This document shows positions 21,012-29,148 of a stretch of DNA of 34,233 nucleotides, one piece after another; within the stretch, counting starts at the first letter, position 1; every line of letters begins with the position of its first letter. The DNA lies in contig CADAEX010000001.1 of NCBI GenBank assembly GCA_902787125.1, forward strand, positions 1-34,233, written 5' to 3'. The notes beneath the pieces were generated by a model. That model saw only the letters and a list, made by a program, of their open reading frames with translations. It was not told the DNA's origin and made no database searches. The DNA comes from an uncultured Spirochaetaceae bacterium (GTDB lineage: Bacteria > Spirochaetota > Spirochaetia > CADAEX01). The translations under genes were made by a program, and so were the position numbers.

Positions 21012-21034
21012 TTTCCAGTTGTCATTACTGGAAA
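21012..21034. other. Stem-loop over the thiQ stop codon
   Basis: TTTCCAGT (21012-21019) and ACTGGAAA (21027-21034) form an 8-bp stem with a 7-nt loop and include the stop of the thiamine ABC ATPase gene. No T-tract follows on either strand, so it is more likely an RNA 3'-end or processing element than an intrinsic terminator. Confidence 0.35.
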
Positions 21035-22062
21035 AGTATTATGTTCTCCGGTCTTACAGCCAGCTGGCAACCGGCGCTCCGAAGCTTGAAGGGGTAGGTG
21101 TCATACACCTTGATAATGCCGCAGTCTGTATTTACAGAACAGGTGTAGCGGCTTCCGTAGAAAGTTCTGTCTGCTATTTTCCCTTTGATTATATTTTCCC
21201 CGTTTCCCTGGGCAGCTGTGCAGCATTCAGGACGGAAGAACAGTATCACCTGATCTCCGGCAGAGTACCGGTATGACCGGTTCTGAACCTTGAAAATCTG
21301 ACCCTGGCACTCTACCTCCACCATATCTCCGGCGGAGATCACCTTTCCTTTCAAGATGTTGGACTGGCCTATAAACTTGGCAGTGTATAGGGTTCTGGGC
21401 TGGAAGTAGATTTCCTGAGGTGTGCCGGTGCACTCTATGTTTCCCCGGCGGAAAACGGAGATGCGGTCAGAGATAGTCATGGCCTCCTCCTGGTCGTGGG
21501 TGACATAGATGGTGGTCAGGTGATTTTTCCGATGGGTCTCCAGAATCTGGGCCTTAAGCACCCCTTTCAGCTTTTCATCAGCCGCGCTGAGGGGCTCGTC
21601 CAGGAGGAGCAGAGCAGGGTTCACTGCAATGGCCCGGGCCAGGGCAACCCGCTGTTTCTCGCCTCCGGAGAGGGTGTCTGGTTTCCGCTTCCCGTACCCA
21701 GGAAGTGCAATTGCCTCCAGCAGTTCTTTTGTCCTGGACTCAATCCTCTCTTTTGGCCAGTGACGGGTCTCCGGGCCATAACTGATGTTTTTTGCCACTG
21801 TCATATTGGGGAAGAGGGCGTAATCCTGAAAGACTATGGATATGTTGCGCTTTTCGGATGGCATTTCAGTTATGTCTTTGCCATCAAGGTATATGCGGCC
21901 GGAATCGGGGGCAGTGAACCCTGCGATTATACGAAGCAGGGTAGTCTTTCCGCATCCGGAAGGTCCCAGGAAAGTGTGAAATTCTCCCTCTTTAAGCTCC
22001 AGGTCTGCATTCAGGGTGAATGCCCCATAGCTCTTCTTTATATTCTCCAGTTTCAGTTTCAT
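21025..22062 (-). CDS. thiQ: Thiamine-type ABC transporter ATP-binding protein (with TOBE domain)
   Basis: 345 residues. Walker A GPSGCGKT, Q-loop VFQDYALFPNMTV, signature LSGGEKQRVALARA, Walker B LLLLDEPLSAAD and H-loop VTHDQEEAMTISDR are complete. A C-terminal TOBE-like region (KGKVISAGDMVEVECQGQ, IILFFRPE) makes it longer than enterobacterial ThiQ (about 230) and more like FbpC/PotA ATPases. It energises uptake with the adjacent permease, overlapping its gene by 4 nt (ATGA). The thiamine assignment comes from the TPP riboswitch at the head of the operon and the ThiB/ThiP-like partners, not from this protein alone. Confidence 0.85.
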   Translation of the reverse strand: MKLKLENIKKSYGAFTLNADLELKEGEFHTFLGPSGCGKTTLLRIIAGFTAPDSGRIYLDGKDITEMPSEKRNISIVFQDYALFPNMTVAKNISYGPETRHWPKERIESRTKELLEAIALPGYGKRKPDTLSGGEKQRVALARAIAVNPALLLLDEPLSAADEKLKGVLKAQILETHRKNHLTTIYVTHDQEEAMTISDRISVFRRGNIECTGTPQEIYFQPRTLYTAKFIGQSNILKGKVISAGDMVEVECQGQIFKVQNRSYRYSAGDQVILFFRPECCTAAQGNGENIIKGKIADRTFYGSRYTCSVNTDCGIIKVYDTYPFKLRSAGCQLAVRPENIILFQ

Positions 22063-23684
22063 AGGCTTATCTCTCCCAGCCGGTCAATTGCATAGAAGGC
22101 TGCAATGCATATCAGAAGAAGCACAGTTCCCATGGCACAGGCCTGGTAGAACCTGTATGCTCCTATAAGGCGGTAGATTGCCACAGGCATGGTGGTAAAG
22201 CCCTCAGGAGCAAGCATAAGGGCTCCGTTGACCTCTCCGGCCGATACTGCAAAGGCAAATATGCCGGCTGTGAATATACCGTTCTTTATCATCGGCAGCT
22301 TTACTGTCCATAGAATCCGCAGCGGTTTTGCCCCAAGACTTTTGGCACACTCTATGCACCTTCTGTTTATCCTGCTGTAGAACAGGGATATGGCTTTTAT
22401 GGTGAAGGGGAGGACTGCCGCTGTGTGGACAGCGATAAGGAGCAGCTTCCCGTTGGGTCTGAAGCCCAGCTTGGATATGGTCAGCATAAAACCCAGAGAA
22501 AGCAATATGGAGGAGATTCCTAATGATGCAAAGAAGAAAATCTGAATCAGGAATGCTCCCTTGGGCCATCTGGATATTACAGCAGAGATGATCAGGGAAA
22601 GTATTATTGCACATATCACGGTGGCGACAGCTATTAATATAGTGTTAAGCACCGGGTTGTACATGACCGGCTGTGTAAAGGCCCGGTACCATTTTAAAGT
22701 AAGGCTGTTTTCCTTTCCCCATCCGCTTTTTCCTGTCAGGGAATTCAGGGCAATGGTCACCATAGGCATGGCAATATAGAGAATCAGGAAAAATATGTAG
22801 AGGAGAGCAGGGAAGTGATGCAATGAAAGCTTTTTTGCCGGCACAGTTCCGTGCTTTCCTGCAGGGGCCGGATAGCTGCTCTTCTGATGCCCTGCGGCAG
22901 TATATACTGCGATGAAAAGCAGGGTTATAAGGGATTCTATGCCTCCCAGCGCACAGGCTTTTGTAATATTGGATGTGGTGCGGGCAAGCTTGTATATCTC
23001 CACCTCCATTGTTGAGTACTGAGGACCTCCTCCCAGCACCAGCACTATGGAGAAACTCATGAAGCAGAGTACAAATATAAGGGCGCAGGCTGCTGTTATG
23101 GCACACAGCAGCCAAGGACAGGTGACTGTCCTGAACAGCCGCCACCTGCCTGCTCCCAGGCTTTTGCCTGCCTCGTAGAGAGATACAGGTATATTCTCCC
23201 ACACCGGATATACAAATCGTATAAAGAGCGGGATGTTGTAGAAGGTGTGGGCTATGAGTATGGCCTTCATGCTGTAGAGCAGGCGCAGTGGCGGCTGTTC
23301 TGCGCCCGACAGGGCCATGAGGGCCCGGTTGACGATACCGTTGTTACCTATCAAAAGGACAATTCCCAGCACTGCCGCGATAGTGGGCAGTACGTAGGGC
23401 ACTGTTATAAGAGCCTTTATGAAGTTCTTCCCCCGGAATGTATACCGGGCCAGTATATATGCCCCAGGAAAGCCTATTGCGGCAGAGAGCAGGGTGCTCA
23501 GTACACCCTGCTTCAGCGAGAAAAGGCATATACTCCTGCAGTAGCTGTCAGTCAGTACAGATTTAAGCCCCTCCTTGGAAAAACCGGTGATGAAAACATT
23601 GATCACCGGCACATAAAAGAAGACCAGCAGAAGCAGGAAGGGGACTATGAACAGCAGCAGGAGTAAAAGTCTGTTCTCTTTCAT
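22059..23684 (-). CDS. thiP: Thiamine-type ABC transporter permease, fused double-domain
   Basis: 541 residues, near the size of ThiP. Two membrane halves each carry an EAA loop: EAGKSLGAGRWRLFRTVTCPWL in the first and ECAKSLGAKPLRILWTVKLPMI in the second. About twelve helices span the inner membrane. A polar cytoplasmic stretch (HQKSSYPAPAGKHGTVPAKK) joins the halves. Its start overlaps the stop of the binding-protein gene by 4 nt and its stop overlaps the ATPase start, so all three are translated together. Confidence 0.88.
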   Translation of the reverse strand: MKENRLLLLLLFIVPFLLLLVFFYVPVINVFITGFSKEGLKSVLTDSYCRSICLFSLKQGVLSTLLSAAIGFPGAYILARYTFRGKNFIKALITVPYVLPTIAAVLGIVLLIGNNGIVNRALMALSGAEQPPLRLLYSMKAILIAHTFYNIPLFIRFVYPVWENIPVSLYEAGKSLGAGRWRLFRTVTCPWLLCAITAACALIFVLCFMSFSIVLVLGGGPQYSTMEVEIYKLARTTSNITKACALGGIESLITLLFIAVYTAAGHQKSSYPAPAGKHGTVPAKKLSLHHFPALLYIFFLILYIAMPMVTIALNSLTGKSGWGKENSLTLKWYRAFTQPVMYNPVLNTILIAVATVICAIILSLIISAVISRWPKGAFLIQIFFFASLGISSILLSLGFMLTISKLGFRPNGKLLLIAVHTAAVLPFTIKAISLFYSRINRRCIECAKSLGAKPLRILWTVKLPMIKNGIFTAGIFAFAVSAGEVNGALMLAPEGFTTMPVAIYRLIGAYRFYQACAMGTVLLLICIAAFYAIDRLGEISL

Positions 23685-24706
23685 TTAGCCATAGTGCTCT
23701 CGAGCCAGCCGTTAAGCCAGCTGTCAAGATTCTTGTCTATTTCATCTGCCTTAAGCAGAAGCGGTCTGTCAGAGACAGGAGCACTCTTATAAGAGTCTGG
23801 CAGCTTTGTCTCTATTACAGGGTACATCCAGTTGGTAAGAGCCAATTCATTCTGGAAATCCTCGGTCAGGACAAAGTCCATGAACTTCTTTGCCGCATCC
23901 ATGTGGGGGGCATCCTTAAGAATTCCCATTCCTTCGGTCTGCATATAGTTGCCTTCCTCAAAGAGCACAGTCTTTATATGCTCGTCCTTATCATATTCCA
24001 CATGGTAGGCAGGGCTTGTAGTGTAGCTTGTGACCATAGGTGCCTCGCCGCTGGTGAAAAGGCCGTAACCGGAGCTCCAGCTGGAAGATACAGTAAGCAC
24101 GTTAGGCATAAGTTTCTTCCAGTATTCCTTGTAGCCTTCTCCCTTGCACTTGACAGTCCACATAAGAAATCCCAGCCCGGGGCTTGATGTCCTGGGATCC
24201 ATGATGATAAGGGATTTCTTATATTTAGGGTCGAGAAGATCATCCAGGTTCTTCGGCGGATTCTTTATCCTGTTGCTGTCATATACTAATGCGAAGAAGC
24301 TGTAATCGTAAGGGATCACATGATAGCTGCTGTCAAAGATAAGCTCTTTCTTGACATTCTTTATTCCGGCAGGTTTGTAAGGAACAAACAAGTCGTTCTT
24401 GAGAACGGTGGAGAGAAGGTTGTTGTCAACTCCGATTATGATGTCGGCTCCTGTCTTTCCTTTCTCCATTATTGCCAGATTAACAATCTCGCCTGCACTG
24501 CCTCCCTGGCGCTGCTCAATCTTGATTCCGAACTTTTCCTCAAACTTGGGAAAAACCACCGGGGCGGGTCCCCATTCGGAAAGGAAGGAGTCTGTGGCAT
24601 AGACCACAAGTACAGGTGCATCAGAAGAAGCCTTTTCCTTGGAAGCGCCGGCAAATGCTGATGCTGCACAGATGAGACACAAAACTGAAACCAGAATCTT
24701 TTTCAT
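23681..24706 (-). CDS. thiB: Thiamine-binding periplasmic protein
   Basis: 341 residues. The signal peptide MKKILVSVLCLICAASAFA is followed by a cluster II-type binding protein: PVLVVYATDSFLSEWGPAPVVFPKFEEKFGIKIEQRQGGSAGEIVNLAI, GADIIIGVDNN, VIPYDYSFFALVYDSNRI, LIIMDPRTSSPGLGFLMW. This matches ThiB (thiamine, TMP or TPP binding). A Cys at 13 could suggest a lipoprotein, but spacing fits signal peptidase I better. A strong ribosome site GGAGG (24711-24715) sits 4 nt before the ATG, immediately below the TPP riboswitch, so translation is likely controlled by TPP. Confidence 0.92.
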   Translation of the reverse strand: MKKILVSVLCLICAASAFAGASKEKASSDAPVLVVYATDSFLSEWGPAPVVFPKFEEKFGIKIEQRQGGSAGEIVNLAIMEKGKTGADIIIGVDNNLLSTVLKNDLFVPYKPAGIKNVKKELIFDSSYHVIPYDYSFFALVYDSNRIKNPPKNLDDLLDPKYKKSLIIMDPRTSSPGLGFLMWTVKCKGEGYKEYWKKLMPNVLTVSSSWSSGYGLFTSGEAPMVTSYTTSPAYHVEYDKDEHIKTVLFEEGNYMQTEGMGILKDAPHMDAAKKFMDFVLTEDFQNELALTNWMYPVIETKLPDSYKSAPVSDRPLLLKADEIDKNLDSWLNGWLESTMAK

Positions 24707-24721
24707 ACTACCTCCGGAAAA

Positions 24722-24810
24722 GGGGTGGAGATGGTACGGTTTTCCTACGCCAGCATTACCTGGATCAGGTCAAAGGGTATAATCTCAGAGATTCCTAGGA
24801 ATCCCACCCC
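24722..24810 (-). promoter_or_regulatory. TPP riboswitch (THI element)
   Basis: On the minus strand all conserved blocks are present in order: GGGGTGG (P1), CTGAGA, ATACCC, then TGACCTGATCCAGGTAAT, GCTGGCGTAGGAA, and the closing CCACCCC that pairs with the first block. P3 is a short GATTC/GAATC hairpin. Only a few bases separate P1 from the thiB ribosome site and no terminator lies between, so control of translation is more likely than termination. It senses thiamine pyrophosphate and normally lowers uptake gene expression. Confidence 0.95.
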
Positions 24811-24829
24811 AATTTATAAATAAAAAATT

Positions 24830-24851: not shown

Positions 24852-24854
24852 TTT

Positions 24855-24927
24855 CTCCCCCGGACAGACTCGAACTGCCGACCTAGTGGTTAACAGCCAC
24901 CCGCTCTACCGGCTGAGCTACAGGGGA
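24855..24927 (-). tRNA. tRNA-Asn (GTT)
   Basis: 73 bases fold as a complete cloverleaf: acceptor TCCCCTG with CGGGGGA, D-arm AGCTCAGCCGGTAGAGC, anticodon loop CTGTTAA with anticodon GTT, T-arm GGCAG-TTCGAGT-CTGTC. The discriminator base is G, as expected for Asn. The 3' CCA is not encoded and must be added. Confidence 0.97.
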
Positions 24928-24931
24928 ATGA

Positions 24932-24967
24932 TGGTTGTATATTAATTAAATAGGGACTTTGTGTCAA
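24932..24967 (-). promoter_or_regulatory. tRNA-Asn promoter
   Basis: Minus-strand TTGACA (24967-24962), exactly 17 bases, TAATAT (24944-24939), start predicted near 24932, 5 nt before the tRNA. The -35 overlaps the stop codon of the Nudix gene, so the tRNA can be transcribed independently of that operon. Confidence 0.6.
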
Positions 24968-25527
24968 CTTATTTTTGGAAAAATATTTGACACAGCCCTG
25001 CAGCCATCAAGTAATATCTGATCGTGGTCAAAAGCCAGGAAACAGCCCCTGCTGTCCTTTTTCAGCTTTATGGTGCTGTTCTCTACAGTCTCAAGCCCTT
25101 TATCAGAGAAGGATACTGAAAACCATTCTGCATCCGAAGCATCATCTCCTGCCTTTACTTCAAGCCTGCTCCTGTCTACCACAGTGTAGTAGGCGGCAGA
25201 TACCACCCAGCCCCTAGGATCCCGTCCAGGTGCGCTGTAGACCCCCAGAAGGGCAGAGCTCACTCCAGTAAGGCCTGTCTCCTCCTGAAGCTCCCGGTAA
25301 GCAGTCTGGGCCAGAGTCTCGCCTTTGTCGGCAAAACCGCCCGGGAATGCCCAGCGGGTCATGAAAGGATGCCCTTTTCTCTGGATGAGCAGAACCTCAA
25401 GTCCAAACTCTCTGCTGACAGAAAACAGCACATTGTCTGCAGTAAGAGAAGGCTTTGGATACTTGTCAGAATTATACTGACGGAGAAATTCCTCCTCCGT
25501 CAGTCCTTTCTTATCTCTCAGTTCCAT
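24964..25527 (-). CDS. Nudix hydrolase (ADP-ribose pyrophosphatase-like)
   Basis: 187 residues. The Nudix box is perfect: G64, E70, R78-E79, E82-E83, G85 (GFADKGETLAQTAYRELQEETGL). VLLIQRKGHPFMTRWAFPGG before it and SAPGRDPRGWVVSAAYYTVV after it resemble the ADP-ribose/NUDT-NrtR type. It would hydrolyse a nucleoside diphosphate linked to another group, such as ADP-ribose. There is no DNA-binding domain, so it is not an NrtR repressor. The ATG lies 1 nt after the alcohol dehydrogenase stop, making it the last gene of that operon and hinting at nicotinamide-nucleotide housekeeping (inference). Confidence 0.88.
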   Translation of the reverse strand: MELRDKKGLTEEEFLRQYNSDKYPKPSLTADNVLFSVSREFGLEVLLIQRKGHPFMTRWAFPGGFADKGETLAQTAYRELQEETGLTGVSSALLGVYSAPGRDPRGWVVSAAYYTVVDRSRLEVKAGDDASDAEWFSVSFSDKGLETVENSTIKLKKDSRGCFLAFDHDQILLDGCRAVSNIFPKIS

Positions 25528-25528
25528 A

Positions 25529-26746
25529 TCAGAAATCTACTTCTGTGTCGTAGTAGCAGCACTTGAGAAGCTTTTCCATCTCTGCCTGGTTAGGCTGTCT
25601 TGGGTTTGAACCTGTGCAGGCATCCAGGAGAGCGTTCTTTGCAATATCCGGAAGTCTCTTGAGGAATACATCCTCAGGAACAAAGCCCTGCTCGACAGGG
25701 TAGCTGTCTGCGCCGTAGTTCTTGATGCAGTGAGGGATGTTCAGCTTGTCGTTGAAACCTCTGATGTATTTGATGAGGGCTGCTACCTTCTCATCGTCAT
25801 TCTTTCCGCCCAGCTTCATGTAGTCTGCGATTACGCCATAGCGCTTCTTTGCCTCAGGGTTCTTTGCATTGTAAGCAATAACTTTAGGCAGGTACATTGC
25901 GTTTGCCGCACCATGGATGATGTGTGCTCCCAGGTCTGCAAAGACAGCTCCTGTCTTGTGGGCCATGGAGTGTACAATTCCCAGAAGTCCGGAGGAGAAT
26001 GCGATTCCGGCAAGACACTGTGCGCTGTGCATGTTGTCCCGAGCCTTCATGTCGCCGTTGTAGGAGTCAACCAGATCTCTCTGGATCATCTCGATGGCAT
26101 GGATTGCAGGTGCGTCGGTAAAGTCGCTGTGGACTGTGGATACATAAGCCTCGATTGCGTGTGTAAGAGCATCCATTCCTGTGTGGGCAACCAGTTTCTT
26201 TGGCATAGTCTCTGCCAGATCAGGGTCTACAATTGCAACATCCGGAGTGATCTGGAAGTCTGCGATAGGGTATTTGATACCTTTCTGGTAGTCGGTGATG
26301 ATTGAGAATGCTGTAACTTCTGTAGCTGTTCCGGAAGTGGATGATACAGCACAGAACTTAGCCTTTGTGCGCAGCTTCGGCAGGCCGAATACCTTGCACA
26401 TGTCCTCGAATGTTGTCTCTGGATACTCATATTTAATCCACATTGCCTTTGCGGCATCGATAGGGGAGCCTCCGCCGATTGCCACAATCCAGTCAGGCTT
26501 GAACTCCTGCATGACAGCAGCGCCTTTCATTACTGTATCTACTGATGGATCAGGCTCGATTCCCTCGAAGAGAGTAACCTTCATTCCAGCTTCTTCCAGA
26601 TATTTCTGTGCCCGGTCCAGGAACCCGAATTTCTTCATGCTTCCGCCGCCGACGCATATGATAGCTCTTTTTCCTTCCAGTGTCTTAAGCGCCTCAAGCG
26701 CTCCCTTACCATGGTAAATGTCTCTTGGGTTAGTAAATCTCTGCAT
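25529..26746 (-). CDS. Iron-type (group III) alcohol dehydrogenase
   Basis: 405 residues. The dinucleotide-binding segment is IICVGGGSMKKFGFLDRA with GGGSPIDAAKAMW. Metal ligands are in the usual places: GMDALTHAIEAY (Asp and His), GIVHSMAHKTGA (His), and HGAANAMYLP (His). It resembles butanol/ethanol dehydrogenases reducing aldehydes with NAD(P)H; the coenzyme is not certain. A strong AAAGGAG ribosome site suggests high expression. It lies 21 nt after the PHP gene and directly before the Nudix gene. In a fermenting gut spirochaete it would dispose of electrons as alcohol. Confidence 0.93.
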   Translation of the reverse strand: MQRFTNPRDIYHGKGALEALKTLEGKRAIICVGGGSMKKFGFLDRAQKYLEEAGMKVTLFEGIEPDPSVDTVMKGAAVMQEFKPDWIVAIGGGSPIDAAKAMWIKYEYPETTFEDMCKVFGLPKLRTKAKFCAVSSTSGTATEVTAFSIITDYQKGIKYPIADFQITPDVAIVDPDLAETMPKKLVAHTGMDALTHAIEAYVSTVHSDFTDAPAIHAIEMIQRDLVDSYNGDMKARDNMHSAQCLAGIAFSSGLLGIVHSMAHKTGAVFADLGAHIIHGAANAMYLPKVIAYNAKNPEAKKRYGVIADYMKLGGKNDDEKVAALIKYIRGFNDKLNIPHCIKNYGADSYPVEQGFVPEDVFLKRLPDIAKNALLDACTGSNPRQPNQAEMEKLLKCCYYDTEVDF

Positions 26747-26767
26747 TTAATTTCTCCTTTATATAAT

Positions 26768-27472
26768 TTATTTCAGAACTATTCTGTTGTTCTGGAGGCT
26801 GTCACGGAGTGCTGCGAAGCTTTTCTCCTCTACATCAATGTAGAGCTGCTTCTTTGCCACATCATCAAGGTAGTGGGCATCGGAGTCGGATATGACAGGG
26901 TATTTTGCATAGTCCTTGGCGTTGGCCGGATTGAATACCTCGATGGCAGTATATGTGGCATCGGGGAGGAACCCCAGCTGGGATACTATGGAAAAGACAG
27001 GCTTGTCCACATGGGCCGGGATGAAAAGACCGTTGCGGAAGAACACCTCTTCCCGGACATCATCTATGGAAAGGCCGCTGGCGTTGCCCAGGTACTTCTC
27101 GACTTCCCCAAGAATCTCCTCATTCTCGTCCACGTAGACCTGATCGCCGAAGACTTCGGGCTTGTTCTCAATATCAGGCATATATTTATAGACAAATTCG
27201 GAGAATTCAAGTGCTGTCTCCACATCTTCGAACAGGCACACGAGGTGTGCTTCCTCGCTGGAGGTGACCTCCATGCCGTAGAGGCTCCAGAGTCCCTGCT
27301 GGGCACAGTTTGCCTTGAATGCAGGGCAGTTCAGGGCTGTGTTGTGGTCGGTGAGGGCCACCAGGTCAAGCCCTTTCTCCTTTGCCTTTTCCGCAATGGC
27401 GGCAGGTGACATCTCCAGCGAGGCACATGGGGATACACAGGAATGAATATGGAAATCGGCTCTGACCAGCAT
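26768..27472 (-). CDS. PHP-domain phosphoesterase
   Basis: 234 residues, a stand-alone PHP domain. Metal ligands are visible: DFHIHSCVSP (H-x-H), ALTDHNTALN (D-H), GMEVTSSEEAHLV (E and H), FIPAHVDKP (H), and ISDSDAHY (D-x-H). It should hydrolyse a phosphate ester; nucleotide and polynucleotide substrates are known for relatives. Its ATG shares a base with the stop of the second DRTGG-like gene. Genes of this type occur next to DRTGG and HATPase genes in [FeFe]-hydrogenase operons of clostridia and Thermotogales, from memory. Specific role unknown. Confidence 0.85.
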   Translation of the reverse strand: MLVRADFHIHSCVSPCASLEMSPAAIAEKAKEKGLDLVALTDHNTALNCPAFKANCAQQGLWSLYGMEVTSSEEAHLVCLFEDVETALEFSEFVYKYMPDIENKPEVFGDQVYVDENEEILGEVEKYLGNASGLSIDDVREEVFFRNGLFIPAHVDKPVFSIVSQLGFLPDATYTAIEVFNPANAKDYAKYPVISDSDAHYLDDVAKKQLYIDVEEKSFAALRDSLQNNRIVLK

Positions 27473-27804
27473 CAGTCCTTCATTTTTTCAGCAACTTTTG
27501 CAGATGCCTCAAACTGGGTCTCGGCTGTCTTGAAGAGAGCTACGTCGTTATCGTTGGCAGCTTCGATCATGTCTGAAGGGATAGCACGCTTGTTGCAGAC
27601 CAGTATAGCCCTGATTCCAGCCAGTGTAGCCACAGCGATAGTGTTCTTGTGTGCCTGGATGGTGATAAGGATGGAATCGGATGGGGCATTTGCCATGACA
27701 TCGCTCAAGAGGTCGCCGGTGTATCCAGCCTTGATTTCAAAATCTTCCATCTCATTCTTTGTCTCTCTGGTATAACCCAGTGCTTCTAAATCACTTACTT
27801 TCAT
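27472..27804 (-). CDS. Small DRTGG-like domain protein (second copy)
   Basis: 110 residues: MKVSDLEALGYTRET, then YTGDLLSDVMANAPSDSILITIQAHKNTIAVATLAGIRAILVCN, a Rossmann-like beta-alpha pattern that resembles small DRTGG-domain proteins. The motif after which the family is named is not literally present, so the call rests on overall similarity and context. It contains no catalytic motif I recognise and may bind a ligand or nucleotide. It starts inside the end of the CBS/HATPase gene (14-nt overlap) and shares a base with the PHP start. Moderately sure of family, unsure of function. Confidence 0.6.
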   Translation of the reverse strand: MKVSDLEALGYTRETKNEMEDFEIKAGYTGDLLSDVMANAPSDSILITIQAHKNTIAVATLAGIRAILVCNKRAIPSDMIEAANDNDVALFKTAETQFEASAKVAEKMKD

Positions 27805-28741
27805 CTTCTTCGTTCCCTAAATTGATTTTTATTTTTACTTCCGTACCTGTAACGTCGGAAGCTATCTGGAAGTCATTGCTGACTCTCTTTACATTCGGAA
27901 GACCCATTCCTGCGCCGAAGCCCTGGGACCTTATCCATTCGCTGGCTGTGGAGAAGCCGTCGGTGAGAGCTTTCTCCAGGTCTGGTATGCCGGGCCCCTT
28001 GTCCTGGGTCTTTATCATTATTGCATCGGGCAGAAGCTGGAATATAAGGACACCGCCGTCGGAATGGACAACCAGGTTTATCTCCAGCTCATAGGCCGCT
28101 ATGGAGACACGTCGGATTATACTCTGCTTTATTCCCCGTTCCTTGAGGATCTTCTTGATCTCGGAGGTGACCTTTCCGGCATTCTCAAAGTCGTACTTGT
28201 GGACTATGAACTGACGGTAGATCACTGTATCAGGTCTTATATCGGAAGGGTCCGGGTCGCTTAAGCGCATATTGAGCTTGTCATATTTCTGCAGCTGTTT
28301 GTTGATATTGTTAAGCATGGCGGCAGTAAGGTCACGGGCCGTTATCATGCCGGTGAGCTCTTTGTTCTTGTTTATTACCGGGAACCGTCTGAATTTGAAT
28401 TTATTGAAATAGTTGATGGCGAAGGATATAGGCATATCCTCTTCCAGCAGAATCACATCCCTGGACATGTACTTGCTTACTTTCTCGTCCAGGTTGCCGT
28501 TGTCATAGCAGGCCATGATGTCATAAAGACTTAAGATTCCTGCCAGTCTGTTCCCATCTACAACAGGAAGTCCGGTAAGGCCGTTATCCCTCATGATATT
28601 CTTTGCTGAGCGCATAGTATCGTCAGGAGCTACCTTCATAGGGTTGGCATTCATAGCCTCCTTGACCCTGACGGTGTAGATGCTCTCAAGAATAACTTCG
28701 TGAGAATCGTTTACGAAAAGAAGATTATTTACACTTCCCAA
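27791..28741 (-). CDS. CBS-pair protein fused to an anti-sigma-type HATPase domain
   Basis: 316 residues. Two CBS motifs form residues 26 to about 145 (VKEAMNANPMKVAPDDTM, GLTGLPVVDGNRLAGILSLYDIM; VSKYMSRDVILLEEDMPI, RRFPVINKNKELTGMITARDL). Residues about 175-311 form a GHKL ATPase of the RsbW/anti-sigma kind: N-box YELEINLVVHSDGG, G1 DKGPGIPD, and GFGAGMGLPNVKR. CBS pairs sense adenosine nucleotides, so the kinase-like domain may be controlled by energy charge. The start is a TTG at 28741, since no closer in-frame ATG or GTG exists, overlapping the preceding gene by 17 nt. No sigma factor or anti-anti-sigma gene is nearby; the target is unknown. Confidence 0.82.
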   Translation of the reverse strand: MGSVNNLLFVNDSHEVILESIYTVRVKEAMNANPMKVAPDDTMRSAKNIMRDNGLTGLPVVDGNRLAGILSLYDIMACYDNGNLDEKVSKYMSRDVILLEEDMPISFAINYFNKFKFRRFPVINKNKELTGMITARDLTAAMLNNINKQLQKYDKLNMRLSDPDPSDIRPDTVIYRQFIVHKYDFENAGKVTSEIKKILKERGIKQSIIRRVSIAAYELEINLVVHSDGGVLIFQLLPDAIMIKTQDKGPGIPDLEKALTDGFSTASEWIRSQGFGAGMGLPNVKRVSNDFQIASDVTGTEVKIKINLGNEEDESK

Positions 28742-29069
28742 GCAATTTCCCCAATTCGATGCAGGTAGTAAACATATTGTTCTTGGTGGAAATAAGGGTC
28801 AGCCCAGATTCCTCTGCCAGTGTCTTCATGGAAGTCTGGGGCCGTTTGCCATTTATAAGGATAACTCCGCGGGCTTCCACAATGTCGGCAGTCCGTACCA
28901 CCTGGTCAGTTGTAAGGGCCGTAACCAATATTCTGTTATCTTCATCTCCAACCAGAACTTCACTCATCATGTCTCCGGCAGAAACATTCTCAATAACAGC
29001 TGTATCAAAATCATTGCCTTTGTTTATTATCTCGCAGCTGATATGCTCAACAATCTCTTTGAAAGTCAT
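28725..29069 (-). CDS. Small DRTGG-like domain protein (first copy)
   Basis: 114 residues: IVEHISCEIINKGNDFDTAVIENVSAGDMMSEVLVGDEDNRILVTALTTDQVVRTADIVEARGVILINGKRP. The pattern of strands and the VSAGDMMSEVL / TADIVEARGVILINGK features resemble DRTGG-domain proteins found beside hydrogenase operons. It is the first gene of a six-gene minus-strand operon. AAGGA precedes the ATG by only 2 nt. A possible promoter is TTGTTT (29130-29125), 17 bases, TACAAT (29107-29102). It and the second DRTGG-like protein could form a pair with the CBS/HATPase protein between them. Function unknown. Confidence 0.6.
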   Translation of the reverse strand: MTFKEIVEHISCEIINKGNDFDTAVIENVSAGDMMSEVLVGDEDNRILVTALTTDQVVRTADIVEARGVILINGKRPQTSMKTLAEESGLTLISTKNNMFTTCIELGKLLGKCK

Positions 29070-29148
29070 ATTCCTTATTGCCTCTTATAGCGTTTGGACT
29101 TATTGTACTGGCTTTATAAGGAAAAAACAAGATAGTATTTAAAAATAT

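Follow-up and report, generated by a model that had tools for sequence, protein, structure and literature searches.

A conserved DRTGG, CBS-HATPase and PHP gene cassette accompanying HydB-type bifurcating enzymes, with an optional alcohol dehydrogenase neighbour in an uncultured spirochaete

Bifurcating hydrogenases and their relatives decide the H2 and ethanol yields of fermenting bacteria, and their regulation beyond Rex is poorly known. Here we describe a four-gene cassette, in which two stand-alone DRTGG-type proteins (DRTGG1 and DRTGG2) flank a CBS-CBS-HATPase fusion and are followed by a PHP-family phosphoesterase, from an uncultured Spirochaetaceae bacterium; the whole stretch analysed, hereafter the window, covers positions 1-34,233 of contig CADAEX010000001.1. 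Among described systems, Halanaerobium hydrogeniformans combines genes for HydA, HydB, ferredoxin-like and histidine-kinase-like proteins, NuoE, a PHP protein and an anti-sigma/serine-threonine kinase in one putative operon, Halsa_1862-1871 (PMC4237134). Hydrogenase, PHP and anti-sigma-type genes hence stand together in that organism, whereas the window cassette is detached from hydABC; the passage of the paper that presents the operon names no DRTGG or CBS parts and gives the accessory genes no function. The CBS-pyrophosphatases represent another relative. They bind AMP and Ap4A (PMC10742508), and through their CBS/DRTGG part AMP and ADP inhibit while ATP and Ap4A activate, according to passages of two papers (PMC10742508; PMC11172384). 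The likeness to this regulatory part (PDB 3l2b, 3l31) comprises the CBS pair and the DRTGG domain, the latter matched by the model of the window DRTGG2, but the pyrophosphatase effector is a DHH phosphatase, in contrast to the separate DRTGG proteins and GHKL effector of the window.

The genes of sensory [FeFe] systems (HydS of M2e/M2f; hfsABCD) are located with those of group A hydrogenases and HATPases, and a regulatory link to adhE is on record (PMC8163306, PMC5707799), whereas no H-cluster protein is encoded in the window cassette; the HydS-like gene of this genome lies at another locus, beside a HATPase gene of its own. The bifurcating BfuABC enzymes (PMC9304861) contain the module with which the cassette co-occurs; that paper treats the enzymes, and a term search of its main text recovered no mention of DRTGG, PHP or CBS. 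Similarly, a literature search, with most subscription journals outside its reach, returned no report in which DRTGG proteins are connected with hydrogenase operons or the cassette is given a function. The cassette is real, widespread and uncharacterised, and the new point at the window locus is its unusual, optional alcohol dehydrogenase (ADH) neighbour.

At this locus the four genes follow the order that defines the cassette, on one strand and with overlaps of 17 nt (DRTGG1/CBS-HATPase), 14 nt (CBS-HATPase/DRTGG2) and 1 nt (DRTGG2/PHP). Open reading frames and Pfam matches bear out the preliminary description of the window, which had recognised the overlapping DRTGG, CBS-HATPase, DRTGG and PHP genes as well as an iron-type ADH and a Nudix hydrolase next to them (Table 1). 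The chain of overlaps stops at PHP, however, and ADH follows after a spacing of 21 bp that includes a ribosome-binding site. The four-gene arrangement is not a product of chance: dozens of genomes share the gene order, and purifying selection on the proteins is strong, with ratios of nonsynonymous to synonymous substitution (dN/dS) mostly of 0-0.06 within the genus and a maximum of 0.13 (DRTGG2 versus the sister species G001).

We favour, at a probability of roughly 0.6, that the cassette is a conserved regulatory unit that would serve bifurcating enzymes based on HydBC (BfuBC), presumably acting in trans on hydABC in this genome. One line of evidence is co-occurrence in a phylum-level survey of 296 genomes, 58 of which qualify as cassette genomes by a CBS-HATPase match at E<=1e-30. 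HydB (E<=1e-140) is encoded by 56 of these 58 and by 80 of the 238 others (odds ratio 55, Fisher p 4e-20), p-values that overstate the significance because the counts ignore shared ancestry. For the [FeFe]-hydrogenase (PF02906), counted in the same manner, the corresponding figures are 50/58 and 118/238 (odds ratio 6.4); all 39 genomes with a full-length CBS-HATPase match (E<=1e-66) possess it. Moreover, the two cassette genomes without a HydB match (G112 and G149) harbor HydB/HydA-like genes of 603 and 230 amino acids near the cassette, and sizes and neighbours suggest an NAD-reducing Hox-type enzyme (HoxF/HoxU-like). The constant partner of the cassette is the HydB/BfuB module rather than the [FeFe] subunit.

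The survey across bacteria, restricted to the best 80 loci of a genome collection and including many short contigs, extends this pattern to records from Spirochaetes, Kiritimatiellae, Verrucomicrobia, Chloroflexi, Deltaproteobacteria, Planctomycetes, Cloacimonadota, Atribacteria and others. In the stretches fetched around these loci, HydB was detected at 40 of 80 and the [FeFe] catalytic domain at 8 of 80. The cassette is found repeatedly next to hydABC in several phyla: the same four-gene order adjoins hydC-HAT-fdx-hydB-hydA in many spirochaetes and in other phyla, commonly led by rex, and a frequent spirochaete layout has hydA-hydB-fdx-HAT-hydC divergent from rex-DRTGG1-CBS-HATPase-DRTGG2-PHP. 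Elsewhere, Pfam identifies other terminal enzymes, namely a [NiFe] large subunit (L238, L194), formate-dehydrogenase-type molybdopterin oxidoreductases (L201, L224, L212), an HdrA-like flavoprotein (L222) and an NfnB-like/molybdopterin fusion (L229). Association with such non-[FeFe] bifurcating-type enzymes (L238, L194, L201, L212, L222, L229) points to HydBC as the regulated entity. The tie to electron-bifurcating [FeFe]-hydrogenase operons made in the preliminary description holds, but was drawn too narrowly, HydB/BfuB being the stricter partner, also where the terminal enzyme is of another type. That the cassette follows HydB across terminal enzymes points towards shared regulation of the bifurcating core, and it supplies a short list of candidate genes for the study of bifurcation control.

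The window genome itself (labelled G000; 1.46 Mb in 193 contigs, 95.7% complete) encodes HydB/BfuB and yields two [FeFe] matches. The whereabouts of hydA, raised already in the preliminary description, could be settled: it belongs to a hydABC locus on contig C155, where rex is divergent from hydC-HATPase-[2Fe-2S]-hydB-hydA and hydA is cut by the contig end. The cassette is hence not physically linked to hydABC here, and in the sister species G001 one contig holds both hydB and the cassette, some 34 kb apart. The second match, on contig C4, is a 430-residue protein with Fe_hyd_lg_C, a C-terminal FeS domain and a C-terminal Cx2Cx4Cx16C motif, like the sensory HydS of PMC8163306; the HATPase adjoining it is 42% identical to that of the window. 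Related spirochaetes (L130, L131, L132, L134) possess a mini-cassette, DRTGG1-HATPase-HydS, unlike the window genome, in which HATPase-HydS occurs without a DRTGG gene. Contig C13 (L151, 7689-11662) carries HydC and HydB genes in another, second operon, together with an NfnB-like flavoprotein (Pyr_redox_2 + Fer4_20); this operon resembles a Sporomusa-type Nfn transhydrogenase and follows genes for an aldehyde dehydrogenase and a citrate-synthase-like protein.

Conservation within the proteins was assessed next to their distribution. The CBS pair of the fusion is recognised by Pfam at E 1e-26, and across 16 diverse orthologues S71 and D74 of CBS1 and D137 of CBS2 are invariant, consistent with the nucleotide-ribose motif [ST]xxD. 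In the HATPase, invariance extends to E218, E220 and N222 of the N box, to H226 and T300, to the G1 box D247xGxG (D247, G249, G251), and to G276, G278 and G280 (GxGxG) of the glycine-rich lid GFGAGMG. With the N, G1 and G2 boxes intact, the motifs assign the protein to the GHKL ATPase/anti-sigma-type serine kinase family; a STAS substrate gene is absent from the cassette, and viral contigs encoded no relative of the CBS-HATPase. Among 13 PHP orthologues, H8, H10, D42, H43, E68, H76, H154, D198 and H200 are invariant, plus C12 and C16. The His/Asp/Glu set fits the metal ligands of PHP enzymes, and the putative ligands appear intact.

As for the small proteins, DRTGG1 exceeds the Pfam cut-off, 15 of 16 orthologues match DRTGG, and M35, S36, Q56, R59, T60, A61 and K75 are invariant. 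DRTGG2 is a DRTGG domain as well, despite its sub-threshold Pfam score, because 12 of 13 orthologues match DRTGG at E<=0.01, profile-profile alignment with DRTGG1 reaches 99.5% probability, and the fold agrees: the best solved Foldseek matches of its AlphaFold (AF2) model (pLDDT 97) are 2ioj (DRTGG, TM 0.83) and then 3l2b, the CBS/DRTGG regulatory part of the Clostridium perfringens pyrophosphatase. Separately, six species show almost no variation, even at synonymous sites, in the 5' untranslated region of DRTGG1 and roughly its first 50 codons (window 28905-29148, minus strand). Of the four-fold sites, 20 of 51 vary in DRTGG1, most of them in its 3' half, against 139 of 204 in CBS-HATPase and PHP together (p 2e-4), and RNA folding of the conserved 5' part detected no stable structure (z -0.10).

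By analogy with the CBS-pyrophosphatases, the CBS pair would sense the adenylate state (AMP/ADP/ATP or Ap4A). The DRTGG proteins would be its partners, here on subunits of their own, a pairing known from the CBS-DRTGG part of those enzymes. The adenylate-bound state would then gate the fused GHKL domain, be it an ATPase or a protein serine kinase, while the PHP enzyme may reverse or end the signal, and the module would finally set how active, or how strongly expressed, the NADH/ferredoxin-coupled enzyme is. The ADH-Nudix pair would represent an optional NADH-consuming neighbour outside this machinery, probably co-transcribed here. As rex leads the cassette in many genomes, the arrangement suggests that redox (Rex) and energy-charge (CBS) signals meet at the cassette. 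It is conceivable, although we regard this generalisation as tentative and rather doubtful, that an adenylate-gated kinase/phosphoesterase module composed of a split CBS-DRTGG sensor, a GHKL protein and a PHP enzyme is the common regulator of BfuBC enzymes of many kinds ([FeFe], [NiFe], formate/molybdenum, Hdr), coupling bifurcation to energy charge, in trans in this lineage and at times together with an NADH sink that forms ethanol and shares its transcript.

Several points weigh against a dedicated regulator of HydBC enzymes, in addition to the shared ancestry underlying the counts. The cassette is present in 9 of the 11 genomes of an order-level survey, and the remaining two (G008 and G010) encode hydABC without it; therefore, the cassette is not essential for hydABC. 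In many spirochaetes it is placed away from the hyd genes, and matches to a Rex operator in the window occur at chance level only, as they do on the hyd contig. Furthermore, the action of the GHKL protein could be binding with no phosphorylation, and the substrate of PHP could be a nucleotide instead of a protein. The frequent distance from the hyd genes is also congruent with a general energy-charge or stress regulator for which bifurcating enzymes are one target of several, as is the adenylate sensing by CBS and DRTGG in CBS-pyrophosphatase (PMC10742508). We nevertheless consider this broader role unlikely, considering the very strong HydB association and the physical linkage repeated in unrelated phyla.

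Table 1. Features of the cassette locus and its downstream flank, in window coordinates.
Feature	Coordinates	Strand	Description
DRTGG1	28725..29069	-	Stand-alone DRTGG-domain protein, 114 aa, first cassette gene; PF07085 28.5 bits (cut-off 25.2)
CBS-CBS-HATPase	27791..28741	-	GHKL/anti-sigma-type, 316 aa, TTG start; PF00571 x2, PF13581 (HATPase_c_2), PF02518
DRTGG2	27472..27804	-	Second stand-alone DRTGG-fold protein, 110 aa; PF07085 19.3 bits, sub-threshold
PHP-family metallo-phosphoesterase	26768..27472	-	234 aa; PF02811 E 1.7e-11
Fe-type ADH	25529..26746	-	PF00465/PF25137 E 1e-50; facultative neighbour
Nudix hydrolase	24964..25527	-	PF00293 E 1e-19; facultative, accompanies ADH
tRNA-Asn(GTT)	24854..24928	-	ARAGORN + Rfam; conserved just downstream, edge of variable ADH-Nudix segment

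In the Protein Data Bank, the ADH is matched best by AdhE (7dag, E 1.6e-85), whose alcohol dehydrogenase half it resembles; here that half stands alone. An aldehyde dehydrogenase similar to the other half is encoded elsewhere in the window genome, in an eut-type operon on contig C145 (L240) that comprises an EutC-like gene, a bacterial microcompartment shell protein (EutL-like), the EutE-like aldehyde dehydrogenase and a cobalamin adenosyltransferase-like gene; this operon could supply acetaldehyde to the window ADH. The two genes are not exclusively co-distributed, the EutE-like gene being present also in G004 and G005. The Nudix hydrolase displays a box that is complete by inspection, GGFADKGETLAQTAYRELQEETGL, and its best NCBIfam match is the Nudix part of NtrR, below the cut-off.

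The preliminary description saw the cassette as attached to the ADH; as a conserved unit, this attachment is not sustained by the comparison. ADH-Nudix follows PHP in only three of seven congeners (G000, G001 and G002). In G003, G004 and G005, of the same genus and with an almost identical cassette, PHP is followed directly by tRNA-Asn and the ABC transporter, and the pair is missing as well from G006, a congener with a more diverged cassette, and from G007 and G009. The order survey recovered no close ADH copy elsewhere in the genomes without ADH-Nudix at the locus. No iron-type ADH was found in the fetched stretches around the best 80 cassette loci, and a role of the ADH as conserved cassette partner was rejected on these counts. 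An arrangement that is optional within one genus cannot be the purpose of the cassette; the ADH attachment is local and the ADH is outside the conserved system, which corrects the view of the window locus.

The history of the pair was traced through the neighbouring sequence. In G004 and G005, part of the gap between PHP and the tRNA gene aligns, over 29 and 37 nt, with the 3' end of the Nudix coding sequence in G002, and none of 2000 shuffles scored equally high. This remnant is best read as a deletion scar, and ADH-Nudix has probably been deleted there, though the polarity of gain and loss is not proven because the species tree is weakly supported (36-96%). A recent horizontal arrival in the window species only is not favoured, given the remnant and the synonymous divergence (dS) of the ADH, 0.43 and 0.81, in the range of neighbouring genes. 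Outside the genus, the closest ADHs (80-82% identity) are found in three genomes of another family, all without a CBS-HATPase match and with the ADH alone among unrelated genes; the identities suggest a transfer at a deeper level.

Could the cassette instead have been recruited to the ADH in this lineage, as a switch that directs electrons to either H2 or ethanol? In the window species, the 21-bp gap makes it plausible that ADH and cassette are co-transcribed. The short gap recurs in G002, and in neither genome is there a clear terminator between PHP and ADH, which share a strand. The ADH is under very strong purifying selection (dN/dS 0.007-0.026 within the genus), an EutE/AdhE-like aldehyde dehydrogenase is available in the genome, and in Thermoanaerobacterium the deletion of hfsB goes along with raised adhE expression and a higher yield of ethanol (PMC5707799). 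We still judge such a switch quite unlikely: near-identical and diverged congeneric cassettes do without the ADH, the best 80 loci elsewhere never have it near, its nearest relatives outside the genus reside in genomes devoid of the cassette, and in G001, where the PHP-ADH gap is longer, the ADH has a sigma-70-like promoter match of its own (11/12). The only such match between PHP and ADH in the window scores 9/12, overlaps the PHP end and belongs to a class of matches whose number in the region is at shuffle level. Least probable is that the cassette, instead of signalling, helps to assemble the bifurcating complex or to maintain it at the protein level, e.g. by an ATP-driven chaperone-like HATPase and PHP-dependent processing, for although the cassette is often inside or beside the structural operon and tracks the HydBC module, not the terminal enzyme, CBS, anti-sigma-like HATPase and DRTGG form a domain set typical of regulators, and HydABC is found without the cassette.

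Beyond the tRNA gene (window 21025-24821, minus strand), a TPP (thiamine pyrophosphate) riboswitch detected with Rfam precedes the three-gene ABC transporter (binding protein, permease and ATPase), which is probably a thiamine uptake system.

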